Virus record (IMG/VR): IMGVR_UViG_3300046167_000273
Coordinates: 1 to 36,907 of that record
Reading direction: 5' to 3' (one strand)
DNA from: a virus
Length of the DNA stretch: 36,907 nt
Shown: positions 17,929-27,680 of the stretch, one piece after another
Numbering within the stretch: position 1 is the stretch's first letter
How the letters are laid out: each line of letters starts with the position of its first letter
Notes under the pieces: generated by a model
Database searches by the model: none
What the model was told of the DNA's origin: nothing
Seen by the model: the letters and a program-made list of their open reading frames with translations, nothing else
Program-made: the position numbers and the translations under genes

Positions 17929-18303
17929 CTAGTACGTCCACATTACAGGAGATTCATTATCGTCAAGGTCGCGGATGTCAACATGCACAAAGTCACGAGC
18001 AACTCCAATTCCTGAAAAGCCCATCGAGATAGCCTCTTGAACAATCCTAAACCGTTGTACACCGCTGTTGACTTTGATATCTGCTGCAATACCTTGGGCA
18101 TGAGTTCCTGGTTTCTCCTTCTTTGCTTCTATGGGGTGGTCTTCAGAACGATAACCACTCGTGATAACAAAGGGGAACCCACAACGTGCGCGTAACAAAT
18201 CTAACTTCAGCAACAGCCTGTCACTAATCTCATTCTCGCCAGTGTACTGACAAGCAAACTCTTCCCTAGTAAAATAGTCTAAGTCTTTATTGATACTATA
18301 CAT
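17929..18303 (-). CDS. Endolysin, peptidase M15 family
   Basis: 124 residues. VITSGYRS (Ser49-Ser53), then GTHAQGIAADI with His68 and Asp75, and DFVHVDI with His107 as the likely third zinc ligand and Asp104 as the catalytic acid. These match M15 L,D-endopeptidase/D-Ala-D-Ala carboxypeptidase-like lysins, which cut the peptide bridges of peptidoglycan. No signal peptide or membrane segment is seen, so export depends on the holins at 4.0-4.6 kb. It overlaps the small terminase gene by 8 bases and sits between the two terminase subunits, an unusual place for a lysis gene. Confidence 0.88.
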   Translation of the reverse strand: MYSINKDLDYFTREEFACQYTGENEISDRLLLKLDLLRARCGFPFVITSGYRSEDHPIEAKKEKPGTHAQGIAADIKVNSGVQRFRIVQEAISMGFSGIGVARDFVHVDIRDLDDNESPVMWTY

Positions 18304-18673
18304 CTGTGTATTCCCCTTCTATGGGTTCTTCATTACCGCTTATGACGGTGGTCTCGCCACCAACGCCAGTAATGGAGATGTTAATGGCGCTTTTGCCGCC
18401 ACTAGCCTTATCCTTTTCAAAATAGCTGACAGGTAATAACCTATCCATACAAATCTTCCAAGCCGCTGCCTGGTTCTTATGCTCATCGTCTAACGCAGCA
18501 TTCATTATAGAATCTAACACCTTCTTACTCTTAGGCGATGCTAACATTCTTGCTTTATACTCGTTGATGATGGCTGCATCACCTTTAGGTCTACCAACGC
18601 CTCTGCGTTGTCCCTTGGTAACACTCTGCACCTTCGCCTTCTTAGGTCTTCCTATCTTCTTTTTCTCAGTCAT
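18296..18673 (-). CDS. Putative terminase small subunit with two AT-hook-like motifs
   Basis: 125 residues. GRPKKAK (about residue 8) and GVGRPKGD (about residue 25) are AT-hook-like. They are followed by helices with EYKARMLASPKSKKVLDSIM, NAALDDEHKNQAAAWKICMD and RLLP, the pattern of podovirus small terminases. Role: recognises packaging sites and recruits the large subunit. It is the first gene of the late unit, downstream of a strong promoter and repeat-rich leader. The C-terminus is Gly/Ser-rich and acidic. It could instead be a DNA-binding regulator, but position and helices favour terminase. Confidence 0.7.
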   Translation of the reverse strand: MTEKKKIGRPKKAKVQSVTKGQRRGVGRPKGDAAIINEYKARMLASPKSKKVLDSIMNAALDDEHKNQAAAWKICMDRLLPVSYFEKDKASGGKSAINISITGVGGETTVISGNEEPIEGEYTDV

Positions 18674-18715
18674 AGAATTGCCTCTATAGAGATACTATGT
18701 AGACTGTATAGTCGC

Positions 18716-18737
18716 TAACGCTCTGTTGCTTTAAAGC
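18716..18737. repeat. 22-bp direct repeat, copy 1
   Basis: Starts TAACGCTCTG and ends TTTAAAGC; identical at all 22 positions to the copy at 18842-18863. It lies in the late leader, between the late promoter and the small terminase start. Confidence 0.9.
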
Positions 18738-18870
18738 ACTAGAGACTTTAAAGCTTTAAAGCATTAAAGACATTGTAAGGCTAAGAATAATTATTATTTG
18801 ATCTTAAATTCCTCTTTAACGTCTAAAATGCTTTAAAGCTTTAACGCTCTGTTGCTTTAAAGCTTTAAAG
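18729..18870. repeat. Array of six CTTTAAAG palindromes
   Basis: Perfect CTTTAAAG octamers occur at 18729, 18746, 18754, 18831, 18855 and 18863 (start positions). Three related CTTTAAC/CTTTAAT sites lie nearby. Tandem pairs abut directly (18746/18754 and 18863 after 18855). The array is downstream of the late promoter, in the leader of the structural transcript. Such dense self-complementary sites suggest binding of a dimeric protein, or iterons. Confidence 0.85.
18842..18863. repeat. 22-bp direct repeat, copy 2
   Basis: Exact second copy of the 22-bp unit at 18716-18737, start-to-start distance 126 bases. It ends in CTTTAAAGC, leading directly into another octamer. Confidence 0.9.
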
Positions 18871-18917
18871 CTATATAACTTTAACAACTTTAACACTCTT
18901 TAATGAACTATATAGCT

Positions 18918-18946
18918 AGTATAGCATAATTCTGAGCAAAAGTCAA
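18918..18946 (-). promoter_or_regulatory. Late (structural) sigma70 promoter, extended -10
   Basis: On the minus strand TTGACT (18946-18941), a 17-base spacer and TATACT (18923-18918), with TG at the extended -10 position. It points toward the small terminase gene. The predicted start is near 18911, leaving about 240 bases of leader that contain the CTTTAAAG array. It matches the capsid-module promoter in both hexamers, spacing and upstream flank. Confidence 0.8.
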
Positions 18947-19049
18947 GCATTATTTACTGTTATTGTTATAATAGTTACTAGGTTACCTCTCCCCAGTTCC
19001 TTTATAGGCGGATTCTGGTTAATAACAGCGTCTCCGCAGTGGCTTTTTT

Positions 19050-19135
19050 ATTCCTTTATTATCAACTACTTAGCTATATAGCCTATAGCTATAAGCACCC
19101 CCGTTTTAATAGCCTATTTTGACTCTTTTTTGTAT
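19050..19135. other. AT-rich block, candidate DNA unwinding element
   Basis: A visibly AT-rich stretch (including AGCTATATAGCC and TATAGCTATAAG) about 110-200 bases to the left of the DnaA-box cluster. In bacterial-type origins the region melted by DnaA lies next to such boxes. Assignment is by position and composition only. Confidence 0.4.
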
Positions 19136-19185
19136 CTGGGCGGGTACAGTAACAATCCTGCGACGCCAGCCCCCTCCCCCGTCCC

Positions 19186-19214
19186 TGTTTAGCACAGACT
19201 ACAGCGATTGTCAA
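19186..19214 (-). promoter_or_regulatory. Weak second minus-strand promoter candidate
   Basis: On the minus strand a perfect TTGACA (19214-19209), 17-base spacer, extended TGC and a poor -10 (TAAACA, 19191-19186). If active it would add a long leader to the late transcript, or supply RNA through the AT-rich block. Low confidence because of the -10. Confidence 0.25.
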
Positions 19215-19245
19215 GGCTAGAAAGTGACCAGTAGAGCCAGGATAG

Positions 19246-19277
19246 TCATCCACAGGTTATCCACAGAGTTATCCACA
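19246..19277 (+). other. DnaA-box cluster, candidate replication origin
   Basis: Three same-orientation 9-mers: TCATCCACA (19246), TTATCCACA (19257) and TTATCCACA (19269). The last two match the consensus DnaA box exactly. Start-to-start spacing is 11 and 12 bases, about one helical turn, so bound proteins would lie on one face. The cluster is bracketed by GTGACCAG (19224-19231) and CTGGTCAC (19305-19312), an 8-bp perfect inverted repeat. No other TTATCCACA was noticed in the window. It probably recruits host DnaA. Confidence 0.75.
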
Positions 19278-19379
19278 GGCTGAGGCGTGACTGTATAGGC
19301 TGATCTGGTCACTGGAGATGCTGGACAGTCGAGTGTGAGTATGCTAGTGGGTACTATATAGACTACTTAGCACTACCAT

Positions 19380-19405
19380 GACCAGGTTAGCCAATGTGGT
19401 CACAC
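19380..19405. repeat. Operator-like 26-bp repeat, copy 1
   Basis: Matches 19484-19509 at 23 of 26 positions. It contains inverted arms TGACCA (19379-19384) and TGGTCA (19397-19402) around a 12-base centre, the form of a two-half-site protein binding site. Confidence 0.75.
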
Positions 19406-19483
19406 TATGTTGTTGACTATGTAACAGCTTGTATGTTACTCGCACGTGCGCGCATAATAGAAAGTAGCAGTAGATTATAGCGT

Positions 19484-19509
19484 GACTAGGATAGCTAATG
19501 TGGTCACAC
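19484..19509. repeat. Operator-like 26-bp repeat, copy 2
   Basis: Second copy (3 mismatches), ending a few bases before the -35 of the early promoter candidate. Inverted arms GTGACTA (19482-19488) and TGGTCAC (19501-19507), one mismatch. The position suits a repressor or activator of the early unit. Confidence 0.75.
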
Positions 19510-19515
19510 GAATAG

Positions 19516-19543
19516 TTGCAATCCTATTTGACTTTGATAAAAT
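19516..19543 (+). promoter_or_regulatory. Candidate early promoter
   Basis: TTGCAA (19516-19521), 16-base spacer, TAAAAT (19538-19543). Moderate match only (4/6 and 5/6). It is placed directly after the second operator-like repeat and about 80 bases upstream of the first early gene. The predicted start is near 19550. Confidence 0.4.
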
Positions 19544-19621
19544 GTCACCCTGTTAGGCAGTAAGGCAGACGGGGCAGCAGGCCAGCCCACGGCGAAAACT
19601 ACAATTAGAGAGGATTGCAAA

Positions 19622-19942
19622 ATGGAAAAATTTACTTTTAACACCGGACGCGGTTATGGGCCAGACGGTCAGATAATTGATATTTATAACATCATGGAAA
19701 CAACCGAGTATTGCCCCATTTTTGAAGAAGAAGGGCCGGTTACTTTAATTCTTATGCATGACAAAACGCGCGGCATTCCCGAGCATATGATTTTTTATTG
19801 CGAATTCGCGGATATAACAAAAGATAAAATAATGGATAGATACGACCAATATCAATATGCGGATATTAGCGCCATAGCAGAAAAATATGGTTTAGGCGCA
19901 TCGACTATCAACGAACAAATGTATCAATTAATTAAGGGGTAA
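19622..19942 (+). CDS. First early protein, unknown
   Basis: 106 residues (MEKFTFNTGRGYGPDGQIID; TTEYCPIFEEEGPVTLILMH; DKTRGIPEHMIFYCEFADI). The first half matches the composition of small conjugation/antirestriction-like plasmid and phage proteins that begin with a FNTGRxYxxxGQ pattern. The C-terminal part (ISAIAEKYGLGASTINEQMY) looks helical. AGAGAGG at a good distance precedes the ATG. Being the first gene of the early unit, it may act on host takeover. No enzyme motif is seen. Confidence 0.75.
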   Translation: MEKFTFNTGRGYGPDGQIIDIYNIMETTEYCPIFEEEGPVTLILMHDKTRGIPEHMIFYCEFADITKDKIMDRYDQYQYADISAIAEKYGLGASTINEQMYQLIKG

Positions 19943-21814: not shown

Positions 21815-21840
21815 GTGACCCAAATCCTGGTTCTGGTCAC
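21815..21840. promoter_or_regulatory. Operator-like inverted repeat
   Basis: GTGACC (21815-21820) and CTGGTCAC (21833-21840), the same arms that flank the DnaA-box cluster and occur in the 26-bp repeats. It is located about 85 bases upstream of the methyltransferase-like gene. Confidence 0.5.
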
Positions 21841-23451: not shown

Positions 23452-23645
23452 TTTTATTTAATAGAAGTTTAAATATAGAGCTTATCAATGGCTGCGGTAT
23501 TTTCTTGGAATTTTCCGACAGTAGGGCTGTGTGGTGTTATAACAACAAGACAGAGGAAACCTACGCTATGCCATTTGAGGGCGTGTTATTGATGCTGCCG
23601 TTTATATTGATTAGCTATGGCAGAGTTTACGAGGAGATAGAATAG
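23448..23645 (+). CDS. Small protein, unknown
   Basis: 65 residues (MILFNRSLNIELINGCGIFL, EFSDSRAVWCYNNKTEETYA, MPFEGVLLMLPFILISYGRV). Linked by ATGA to the previous gene and by a one-base overlap to the primase-helicase. The second half is hydrophobic and might touch the membrane. No family is recognised. Confidence 0.6.
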   Translation: MILFNRSLNIELINGCGIFLEFSDSRAVWCYNNKTEETYAMPFEGVLLMLPFILISYGRVYEEIE

Positions 23646-25261
23646 TGGCTAAAATCCATCAACCATGCCCAGACTGTGGCAGCAGTGATGCGCTACAGAT
23701 CAACGACAACGGCAGCACATTCTGTCACAGTTGTCACAAATACACGCCCAGCAGCCAAGTCAGTGAGGATACCTGGAATATCTCTGTGCCAGTATCGACA
23801 GAGCCAAAGTCCAAACCAGACTTCAGTGCTGTAGAGAGAACACTAACAACAGGCAACTACCAAGCCATTGTTGATAGAGGTTTAACAACAGCGACAGCCA
23901 AAACCTATGGCATATTGGATCAGGCAGACAGAACCTATTTTGCCTACCATGATCCGTCAGATGCTAATGTACCCATAGCAGCCAAGATCAGACTGCCCGA
24001 CAAAAACTTTTACAATGTCGGTAACTGGGCAGGTACTGGTCTATTCGGTCAGCAGCTATTCAATGGCGGTGGAAAGTACATCACCATTTGTGAAGGCGAG
24101 TTTGACGCAGCAGCGGCATACCAGATGCAAGGCAGCAAGTACCCATGCGTCAGTGTCAGGAATGGTGCTGGCGGTGCGCTGAAAGACTGTAAGGCGGCAT
24201 ACGAGTATCTGGATAGCTTTGAGGCGATAGTAATATGCTTTGATGCAGATGAGGCAGGAACAAAGGCAGCGCGAGAGGTAGCAGAACTGTTTGGCGGTAA
24301 GTCAGCCATTGTGAAGCATACCAACGGACACAAAGATGCCTGCGACTATCTGAAGGCCAACGATGTTAGAGAGTTTACAGCGGCATTCTGGGCAGCAGAG
24401 AAGTTTGTTCCTGATGGTATCATCAATGGCGCATCACTGTGGGACGAGGTAAACAGACCAGTAGAGAAGTCTGCTGTGATGTACCCGTGGGAGAGTTTAA
24501 ACAAGCTAACCTACGGCATCAGAGAGGCTGAACTGGTGACTATCACCGCTGGTTCTGGACTAGGCAAGTCACAGTTTGTGAGAGAGATTGTGTGGCATAT
24601 ACTCAAGCATTCTGAGGAGAACATAGGTTTATTGTTCCTAGAGGAGAATGCGCGGAAGACTGCGCTATCACTGATGTCTCTAGCAGCTAACAAGCCCTTG
24701 CACCTACCAGATGTAGAGAGTACAGAGGAAGAACGCTGGGAGGCTTTCACAGAGACGATGGGTACTAACAGGCTCTATCTGTTTGACCACTTCGGCAGCA
24801 CCAGTGTTGACAACATCATTGCACGTTGTCGCTACATGGCTAAGGCGCTAGATACAAAGTTTCTGTTCCTAGACCACGTTAGTATTGTTGTGTCAGCGCA
24901 GAGCAACGGTGACGAGCGAAAGGCGCTAGATGAAATCTGCACCAAGCTGCGAATGCTAGTGCAGGAAACAGGCATAACATTGTTTATGGTTAGTCACTTG
25001 AAGAGACCAGACGGCAAAGGACACGAGGAAGGCGCTGTTAGCAGTCTATCGCAACTCAGAGGCTCTGCATCAATTGCACAGCTATCAGATATGGTGATAG
25101 GACTGGAGAGGAACGGACAGGCTGACGATCCTACAGAGAGAAACACCACCCATGTCCGGGTACTGAAGAACCGCTTTTGTGGCACTACAGGTAAGGCAGG
25201 TGGCTTGCTATTCGATCAAACTACAGGTAGAATGACAGAAATTAGAGAAGAGGGACTGTAA
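23645..25261 (+). CDS. DNA primase-helicase (T7 gp4-like)
   Basis: 538 residues, GTG start with GAGGAG just upstream. Zinc finger Cys8-x2-Cys11-x15-Cys27-x2-Cys30, as in T7 gp4, reads the priming site. TOPRIM: ICEGEFDA (Glu150, with Asp154) and VICFDADEAG (Asp200, Asp202), then KDACDYL. DnaB-family helicase: Walker A GSGLGKS (Gly303-Ser309), Walker B FLDH (Asp410), and conserved HLKRPDG and QLRGSASIAQ near the C-terminus. Role: unwinds DNA ahead of the polymerase and lays primers for the lagging strand. It heads the core replication cassette. Confidence 0.93.
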   Translation: MAKIHQPCPDCGSSDALQINDNGSTFCHSCHKYTPSSQVSEDTWNISVPVSTEPKSKPDFSAVERTLTTGNYQAIVDRGLTTATAKTYGILDQADRTYFAYHDPSDANVPIAAKIRLPDKNFYNVGNWAGTGLFGQQLFNGGGKYITICEGEFDAAAAYQMQGSKYPCVSVRNGAGGALKDCKAAYEYLDSFEAIVICFDADEAGTKAAREVAELFGGKSAIVKHTNGHKDACDYLKANDVREFTAAFWAAEKFVPDGIINGASLWDEVNRPVEKSAVMYPWESLNKLTYGIREAELVTITAGSGLGKSQFVREIVWHILKHSEENIGLLFLEENARKTALSLMSLAANKPLHLPDVESTEEERWEAFTETMGTNRLYLFDHFGSTSVDNIIARCRYMAKALDTKFLFLDHVSIVVSAQSNGDERKALDEICTKLRMLVQETGITLFMVSHLKRPDGKGHEEGAVSSLSQLRGSASIAQLSDMVIGLERNGQADDPTERNTTHVRVLKNRFCGTTGKAGGLLFDQTTGRMTEIREEGL

Positions 25262-25467: not shown

Positions 25468-25651
25468 ACAGCAAGAGAGTAAGGCACAGATAGCCTATAC
25501 TAACCCGTATGACAGACACAGCAACACAGACAACGCAACGAGGCAATACTATGTTGATTACGCTGGATATAGAAACAAACACCAGCCACGACAATATCTG
25601 GGTAGTGGTGACGCAGGACGTAGAGACTGGAGAGATGTTAGAGCATTATAG
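25439..25651 (+). CDS. Possible small protein overlapping the polymerase start
   Basis: Would encode 70 residues beginning MSKIGSWIAEQQESKAQIAY. The opening resembles short phage proteins of the MSxIGxW type, but no Shine-Dalgarno is visible and the last 100 bases overlap the polymerase gene in another frame. The space from 25467 to 25551 is otherwise unexplained. Weakly supported. Confidence 0.3.
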   Translation: MSKIGSWIAEQQESKAQIAYTNPYDRHSNTDNATRQYYVDYAGYRNKHQPRQYLGSGDAGRRDWRDVRAL

Positions 25652-27194
25652 TGCTGTGACTCTAGCGCCTCTGATTAGTCGAGCATCAGGCGTTATAGGA
25701 CACAACCTTGTAGGCTTTGATGCACCAGTGCTGCTGAAGCAATGGAACCTGCACATACCGACACCAAAGCAGCGTGACACATTAGTCATGTCGCGCCTTT
25801 ACAATCCATCACTGGAAGGCGGACACAGCCTAGACTCTTGGGGTAAACGCTTTGGCGATCACAAGATAGACTTCGATGACTACGATGGTGGACTGTCTGA
25901 CGAGATGGTGGAGTATTGCAGGCAAGATGTTGCACTGACTACCAGACTGTACAAGCACTTAACTGACACACTGAAGCGTGAGGGGTTTTCAAAACAATGC
26001 GTAGATTTAGAAGAGAAGGTCGCTATCATTACGGCTCAACAGGAGCAGAACGGGTTCATGCTAGACGTAGAGCAAGCAACTTTACTTTGGCAGGACATAA
26101 CGCACAAGATGCGACAGATAACGGAGCAGCTACAGAAAGTGTTTCCACCAATAGTGGAGGAACGCTGGAGCGAGAAGACAGGGAAGCGACTGAAGGACAA
26201 GGTGACAGAGTTTAACGTAGGCTCTCGTAAGCAGATTGCAGAGAGACTGGAAGGTGTAGGCGTTAAGTTTAAGCTGCAAACTGAGAAGGGCGCTATCATC
26301 GTCAACGAGAAGGTGTTAGAAGGCATTGACATACCAGAGGCTAAGATGATCTACGAGTACCTGATGTTGCAGAAGCGAGCAGCACAGATTGACTCTTGGC
26401 TAACCCACGAGAAAGATGGCAGGGTACACGGCAGAGTTATCACCAACGGTGCTGTAACAGGCCGTATGACGCACCACAGCCCTAACATGGCACAAGTACC
26501 ATCAGTGTCTGCACCGTATGGCAGAGAGTGTAGATCATTCTGGTGTGTGCCTGAAGGGCATAAACTAATAGGCTGTGATGCCAGTGGCTTAGAACTACGT
26601 ATGCTTGCACACTATATGCGTGACGAGAGATACACTAACGAAATACTAAGCGGTGACATCCACACAGCTAACATGAAAGCAGCAGGGCTTACAGATCGTA
26701 ACCAAGCCAAGACATTCATCTACGCTTTCTTGTATGGCGCTGGTGCAGCCAAGATAGGACAGATAGTAGGCGGTGGCTACAGAGAAGGTCAGCAGCTTAT
26801 AGACTCGTTCCTACGCAATACACCAGCACTGGCGAAGTTACGAGAGAAGGTAGCAACACACTCAGCAGGCGGTACTTTACCTGGTTTGGACGGTAGGCGC
26901 TTACGAGTCAGGAGTGAACACGCTGCACTTAACACACTATTGCAAGGTGCTGGTGCTGTTGTGATGAAACAGGCTCTGGTGTTGCTGTCAGAATCTTTAC
27001 AAAAATACGACATTCCGCACAAGCTAGTGGCTAATGTGCATGATGAATTTCAGATAGAAGTACCAGAGAATTTTGCTGATGTAGTAGGCAAAGCAGCAGT
27101 ACGAGCCATCAGGAATGCAGGAGATGTGTTAGACCTGCGCTGCCCTCTTGATGCTGAATACAATGTAGGAAATAACTGGGCAGAGACGCATTGA
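25551..27194 (+). CDS. DNA polymerase, family A (T7-like)
   Basis: 547 residues from ATG 25551 (ACGAGG site 7 bases upstream; an ATG 42 bases earlier lacks a site). 3'-5' exonuclease: LDIETN (Asp6, Glu8), GHNLVGFDAP (Asp57), EYCRQD (Tyr122, Asp126). Polymerase: motif A GCDASGLELR (Asp343), motif B RNQAKTFIYAFLYG (Lys387, Tyr391), motif C NVHDEF (Asp498). The residue matching E. coli Pol I 762 is Tyr391, as in T7. The thumb goes from VFPPIVEERW to FNVGSRKQI in about 20 residues, so the T7 thioredoxin-binding insertion is nearly absent. There is no 5'-3' exonuclease domain; that activity is supplied by the gene at 27677. Confidence 0.95.
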   Translation: MLITLDIETNTSHDNIWVVVTQDVETGEMLEHYSAVTLAPLISRASGVIGHNLVGFDAPVLLKQWNLHIPTPKQRDTLVMSRLYNPSLEGGHSLDSWGKRFGDHKIDFDDYDGGLSDEMVEYCRQDVALTTRLYKHLTDTLKREGFSKQCVDLEEKVAIITAQQEQNGFMLDVEQATLLWQDITHKMRQITEQLQKVFPPIVEERWSEKTGKRLKDKVTEFNVGSRKQIAERLEGVGVKFKLQTEKGAIIVNEKVLEGIDIPEAKMIYEYLMLQKRAAQIDSWLTHEKDGRVHGRVITNGAVTGRMTHHSPNMAQVPSVSAPYGRECRSFWCVPEGHKLIGCDASGLELRMLAHYMRDERYTNEILSGDIHTANMKAAGLTDRNQAKTFIYAFLYGAGAAKIGQIVGGGYREGQQLIDSFLRNTPALAKLREKVATHSAGGTLPGLDGRRLRVRSEHAALNTLLQGAGAVVMKQALVLLSESLQKYDIPHKLVANVHDEFQIEVPENFADVVGKAAVRAIRNAGDVLDLRCPLDAEYNVGNNWAETH

Positions 27195-27266: not shown

Positions 27267-27680
27267 ATGAGCGAAGCAAAACCAGTAACAATAGCAGCAG
27301 ACATGATGTGGTCGAGCCTGACTGAAGTAAACCGTATGTCAGGTAAGTATCAAGTAGACCTAGCTAACCTATCCAAGGCAGCAGTAGAGGCGCTGGAGAT
27401 GATGGGCTTGAACGTAAGACAAAAAGACGGACAAGGCAACTTCATCACTGCAAAGTCTAGCCACCCTATTCGCATCTATGACACTGACGGTGACGAGATC
27501 AAAGGTATCCTAGTAGGCAACGGCTCTAAAGCCAAGGCAGTAGTAGGCTACTATGACTGGAAATCTCCAGCAGGTCAGGCAGGACGTAGCCCTTCACTGT
27601 TAAAGCTAGTGGTCACTGACCTAATCCCTTATGGCGGCAACGCTGAGACTACTAATGTGGACTTGGGCGAAGCGTTATGA
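27267..27680 (+). CDS. Single-stranded DNA-binding protein-like
   Basis: 137 residues. The region VGNGSKAKAVVGYYDWKSPA with SPSLLKLVVTDLIPYGG fits the OB-fold pattern of podovirus SSBs (T7 gp2.5 group): N-G-S-x-x-x-V/A-x-x-x-Y-x-W, then S-x-x-x-L-x-x-V-x-V-x-D-L. Role: coats single-stranded DNA for replication and recombination. It has its own strong promoter with a hairpin leader and an AGAGG ribosome site, suiting a protein needed in large amounts. The C-terminus is only weakly acidic, unlike T7 gp2.5. It overlaps the exonuclease start (ATGA). Confidence 0.7.
   Translation: MSEAKPVTIAADMMWSSLTEVNRMSGKYQVDLANLSKAAVEALEMMGLNVRQKDGQGNFITAKSSHPIRIYDTDGDEIKGILVGNGSKAKAVVGYYDWKSPAGQAGRSPSLLKLVVTDLIPYGGNAETTNVDLGEAL

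Follow-up and report, generated by a model that had tools for sequence, protein, structure and literature searches.

A Putative Exchangeable Operator Cassette, Most Often of DnaA Boxes, in the Control Region of an Environmental Phage Group

Results and Discussion

Gene Layout and the Control Region

We analysed an IMG/VR record of 36,907 bases that is classed as linear; this whole stretch is called the window below. Its control region lies between the terminase and structural genes, which run leftward, and the early and replication genes, which run rightward (Table 1). A reading made from the sequence alone had assigned a group of DnaA boxes to the only large intergenic region, and the boxes do sit in the largest non-coding gap (18674–19621). 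The same sequence-only reading had recognised a T7-like replisome, and our searches agree with it. Besides the primase-helicase and the family A DNA polymerase, we found a 5'-3' exonuclease and a weak gp2.5-like match. No RNA polymerase gene was seen among the scanned ORFs of the window, and the search with PF00940 (phage RNA polymerase) was silent both in the window and in its controls. A phage RNA polymerase is likely to be absent, and the record is possibly incomplete.

A megablast search of 15 kb against isolated phages returned no match, and the closest TerL and helicase matches among isolated phages were less than 60% identical. The promoter scan near the region gave about as many sites as chance would; the stretch holding the sigma-70-type match for the leftward genes is visibly conserved in relatives. 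The AT-rich block between this promoter match and the probable terS gene contains CTTTAAAGC repeats, many of them inverted (18728–18900), and the block motif GTAT-N6-GGTAC showed no excess across the window. Rfam and tRNA scans gave no matches.

Table 1. Positions of the main features in the window
Feature	Position	Strand	Remark
Small terminase subunit gene (probable), first of the leftward block	18296..18673	-	Assigned by position; phrog_15261 is the sole match
Sigma-70-type promoter match for the leftward genes	18918..18946	-	TTGACT-17-TATACT, inside the AT-rich block
Conserved block 1, left border of the cassette	19125..19147	+	CTTTTTTGTATCTGGGCGGGTAC
C-rich tract separating block 1 from the sites	19169..19186	+	Conserved in relatives
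Dyad A	19225..19248	.	TGAC-N16-GTCA
DnaA box 1	19246..19254	+	TCATCCACA, one mismatch
DnaA box 2	19257..19265	+	TTATCCACA, perfect
DnaA box 3	19269..19277	+	TTATCCACA, perfect
Dyad B	19288..19311	.	TGAC-N16-GTCA; starts 10 bases past box 3
Conserved block 2, right border of the cassette	19332..19358	+	AGTGTGAGTATGCTAGTGGGTACTATA
Dyad C	19379..19402	.	TGAC-N16-GTCA
Dyad D	19483..19506	.	TGAC-N16-GTCA; a weak promoter-like site (19516–19543) follows 9 bases downstream
First gene of the rightward (early) block	19622..19942	+	
T7-like primase-helicase	23645..25261	+	phrog_239
Family A DNA polymerase	25509..27194	+	

DnaA Boxes and TGAC Dyads in the Window

We rechecked the exact coordinates of the boxes and found three in one orientation, two of them perfect, at steps of 11 and 12 bases, just as they had been described. 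Exact TTATCCACA occurs nowhere else in the window. When the window was simulated with a first-order Markov model (n = 1000), two exact boxes within 15 bp were found in 0/1000 simulated windows, and three relaxed boxes within 30 bp likewise in 0/1000. The trio is not a product of chance. The TCA of box 1 is shared with the end of dyad A, whose final GTCA overlaps the start of TCATCCACA, and the mismatch in this box may be explained by the overlap. The boxes had also been described as lying near an AT-rich block; this block (about 18720–18960) is 290–530 bp away and does not adjoin them.

The control region of the window contains four 24-bp dyads of the form TGAC-N16-GTCA. An 8-bp inverted repeat had been reported around the boxes, and its arms, GTGACCAG (19224–19231) and CTGGTCAC (19305–19312), are present 73 bases apart. 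They are best regarded as the outer arms of dyads A and B. Dyad B occupies about the position at which relatives have a sigma-54-type promoter. In the relatives, the spacer of the dyads is 16 bases long in 45 cases, while any other length from 8 to 25 was found at most once each. All half-sites have a pyrimidine at position 5. We predict that TGAC-N16-GTCA is a real, second protein-binding site. The dyad at 21816 was left out of the count, as it lies in a coding stretch where relatives encode similar residues; another one, at 27554, is also within a gene.

Conservation of the Boxes in Relatives

Relatives were gathered through the terminase (82–98% identical) and by scans with the conserved block CTTTTTTGTATNNNNGNGGGTAC, which gave 106 distinct control regions, 92 of them non-redundant. 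The sequence-only reading had made its claim depend mainly on conservation in close relatives, and the boxes are kept: exact DnaA boxes were found in the slot between blocks 1 and 2 in 51 of the 92 regions. The slot contained 141 exact boxes in all, where the remainder of the same loci predicts 0.19. Some relatives with a TerL identity of only about 54–61% keep the C-rich tract together with the array. No exact DnaA box was found in SIO1 or in the examined stretch of HTVC115P, both of which have similar helicases. The search of genome contigs for host assignment returned two MAG contigs only, and their binning is doubtful.

The pattern of the boxes is what would be expected of DnaA sites. In 80 non-redundant regions, exact TTATCCACA was found 123 times on the plus strand and 2 times on the opposite strand (0.09 expected). 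The common single-base variants, TTATACACA (n = 18) and TTATGCACA (n = 17, with few exceptions on the reverse strand), fall at position 5, which is degenerate in the DnaA consensus TTWTNCACA, and each remaining variant was seen at most 7 times. Because the counts come from related, non-independent sequences, they indicate strong enrichment and not an exact probability. The distances between boxes peaked at 11, 22, 31–33, 42, 53, and 64 bases. Since these are helical multiples, the boxes should lie on one face of the helix. Selection for DnaA binding at these predicted sites is thus well supported, and from base preference, helical phase, and conservation we infer that host DnaA would be the protein bound.

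Two further features of the relatives can be mentioned here. The primase-helicase of the window is 96–99% identical to that of some of the loci L012, L208, L243, and L245 and only about 49% identical to that of others. The terminase of the latter is still over 90% identical, and this split suggests a probable exchange of modules. In addition, GATC was rarer in the cassettes of relatives (positions +25 to +330 relative to block 1) than in the rest of the loci, with 29 sites against 66 expected.

Exchange of Operators in the Slot

In relatives that lack the array, clusters of other operators often fill the slot instead. We counted 43 TGAC-N16-GTCA dyads in the slot (0.61 expected), 10 Fur-type boxes (0.09 expected), 15 TCTTATATAAGA repeats (0.05 expected; loci L207, L253, and L265), and, over the cassettes, 9 LexA-like CTGT-N8-ACAG sites (0.42 expected). 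The names Fur, SdhR, sigma-54, and LexA are putative assignments from motif matches. No other occupant is nearly as common as the DnaA array. Boxes and dyads stand together in the lineage of the window and likewise in L236, L243, and L249. About 22 of the 92 regions have no recognised operator array, which means that the slot may have no single function.

Fur-type boxes occur in the control regions of L203, L232, L259, L284, L300, and L315, and those in L232 are three in number and evenly spaced. Three or four tandem SdhR-type operators (GTCTTATATAAGACATAAGA and near copies) replace or lie near the DnaA boxes in the three loci with TCTTATATAAGA repeats. The 20-base core of L207, GTCTTATATAAGACATAAGA, is contained as 20 contiguous bases in a published SdhR operator (PMC4494728). 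In L012, L245, and L275, a LexA-like CTGTATGAATACACAG lies just past block 2, directly upstream of a TTGACA-like element.

The comparison of L012 and L245 illustrates the exchange. These two loci are 86% identical to the left of the slot and 91% to the right, and no similarity was found inside it; L245 has the boxes and L012 does not. Farther downstream, the DNA of a stretch containing the primase-helicase gene is 89% identical between them. More generally, relatives whose flanks or terminase are nearly the same can carry TGAC dyads instead of boxes, and in one pair the helicase type is shared as well. On the TerS tree, which is short and poorly resolved, parsimony required at least 18 changes in the presence of the DnaA array.

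Link to Promoters

We divided relatives into a D class, in which DnaA arrays are the sole recognised operators, and a T class, with dyads only. The exact sigma-54 consensus TGGCAC-N5-TTGC was found on the same strand in the control region of 24 of the 41 D-class loci and in 0 of the 15 T loci, and its orientation was forward in 29 cases and reverse in 1. The distance from the last box to the start of a sigma-54-like site (at most 1 mismatch) is exactly 11 bp in 17 loci. The same 11-bp junction between box and promoter is seen in L167, whose TerL is 66% identical. Such a fixed geometry would be expected of an operator-promoter unit. The sequence-only reading had mentioned a transcription switch as an alternative to an origin; the box-phased sigma-54 promoter of the relatives favours this alternative, but there is no such site near 19.2 kb in the window itself.

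Because the slot is occupied by differing operators, the simplest function common to them is control of transcription and not a DnaA-specific opening of an origin. We consider that phage transcription is controlled through an operator cassette to which host regulators bind, DnaA being the most frequent of them, and we give this explanation a probability of about 0.5. The boxes would be host DnaA sites within an exchangeable cassette of about 80–180 bp between the two conserved blocks. Host DnaA would assemble there on one face of the DNA and set the activity of the adjacent rightward promoter or promoters, which appear to be of sigma-54 type in many relatives. In the phage of the window, the promoter would be governed jointly with the protein that binds the TGAC-N16-GTCA dyads, and relatives would have exchanged the DnaA array for the operators of other regulators, namely TGAC dyads and Fur-type and SdhR-type sites. 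It is plausible that copy number sets the timing: replicating phage genomes would titrate a limited host regulator, and the switch would then be released.

Known phages offer a parallel. The lambda promoter pR is regulated by DnaA, and a promoter of Stx phage by Fur, so a host global regulator beside a phage promoter is common to those systems and to the present one. The difference is that, within one phage group, a whole operator set is here exchanged as a cassette, be it DnaA, Fur-type, or SdhR-type sites or TGAC dyads. Our literature search returned nothing relevant on phage DnaA boxes with Fur boxes or on phage sigma-54 promoters.

Alternative Explanations

The boxes had at first been read as a DnaA-dependent origin. 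At such an origin, bound DnaA would open nearby DNA or activate transcription through the origin, after which the phage helicase-primase would load. In lambda, DnaA activates transcription through the origin, and given that T7-type phages have transcription-primed origins, an origin near promoters is plausible. It also speaks for an origin that the boxes are conserved, helically phased, and for the most part tandem, and that they occupy the one large intergenic region of a phage that has a replisome of its own. It could be that DnaA arrays are the commonest occupant, and are kept at the low TerL identities given above, because DnaA has a special role, for example in replication. The predicted minimum of the cumulative GC skew was indeed found at about 19 kb. 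However, the skew switch also tracks gene strand at 32.4 kb and is accounted for by it, so it is not independent evidence, and the skew at fourfold sites gave no separate replication signal. Moreover, there are relatives in which other operators replace the arrays or the arrays are missing, and in one pair of loci (L012 and L245) the helicase type is the same; the AT content over and beside the array is only 0.50–0.55; and the AT-rich zone lies 150–350 bp upstream of block 1, which leaves no adjoining unwinding element. With other operators in the slot, no AT-rich element beside it, and a skew that follows the genes, the proposal that DnaA opens an origin and loads the helicase-primase there was not upheld; it is weakly supported, and we regard it as rather unlikely. 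An origin coupled to transcription through the region is possible. The T7 primary origin, which consists of tandem promoters and an AT-rich region, is similar in its related replisome and intergenic control region and different in that here DnaA boxes are present and no phage RNA polymerase was found. Bacterial oriC and its basal origin unwinding system, of which DnaA-trios beside DnaA boxes are a part (PMC8287927), share with the window tandem boxes in one orientation and a short GC-rich neighbour, whereas here there is no adjoining AT-rich zone, the array is exchangeable, and the phage has its own helicase-primase.

Titration might also be an end in itself, with replicating phage DNA withdrawing DnaA (or Fur, SdhR, or sigma-54) and disturbing host replication or gene control with no direct role at a phage promoter. 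In E. coli, DnaA is known to be titrated when DnaA boxes are present in many copies (PMC5835720), consensus boxes are of high affinity, and different relatives target different host regulators. Yet such a sponge needs no fixed position, single orientation, or 11-bp phase to a sigma-54 promoter, and this phage has just three boxes, so we think it improbable. The E. coli titration locus datA is likewise a cluster of DnaA boxes that lacks an unwinding element, but here the cluster lies in an exchangeable phage control region and IHF sites are not enriched (1 consensus match in the cassettes, 2.1 expected). Even less probable is a packaging region (cos or pac), in which dyads and boxes would be recognised by the terminase. 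The probable terS gene adjoins the region and contig ends are somewhat frequent near it, but those ends are scattered and not at one base. We rejected the dyads and boxes as packaging sites since TerS is identical in L234 and L263, one of which has DnaA arrays and the other TGAC dyads (L222 and L296 are also at zero distance); blocks 1 and 2 themselves could be packaging sites. The least likely explanation is a stop signal for DNA entry, as proposed for T5, with host proteins on DnaA boxes pausing DNA transfer. DnaA boxes do count among the described characteristics of the injection stop signal of T5 (PMC13250531). T5-type phages, whose boxes lie in the terminal repeat and in this stop signal, resemble the window in that consensus boxes are clustered in non-coding DNA. 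However, exact boxes in the examined T5 stretch number just three and are scattered, with a single one inside the annotated stop signal, and the present region lies in the middle of the record with no sign of a terminal repeat. T5 is also another phage type, with sparse boxes that lack helical phasing at another genome position. In T5-like phages such as AKFV33 and BF23, repeats of DnaA boxes that are similar to the box array of the window lie within or close to the terminal repeat, near 5.4–5.8 kb.

Conclusions

Beyond control of transcription by an operator cassette, we tentatively suggest, as a possibility with the odds against it, that this widespread environmental phage group times its expression by plugging in a cassette for DnaA, Fur, SdhR, or another host regulator, depending on which one is useful, and that rising copy number titrates that protein and flips the switch. 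DnaA would then be a sensor of copy number or host state and not an initiator. The switch and the origin can both be tested with small DNA fragments, and DnaA boxes in phage genomes should not be equated with replication origins. If the suggestion is true, an abundant group of uncultured phages would, at a single master control site, use DNA-binding proteins of the host to read the physiology of that host, and the reading head at this site would be exchanged between relatives.
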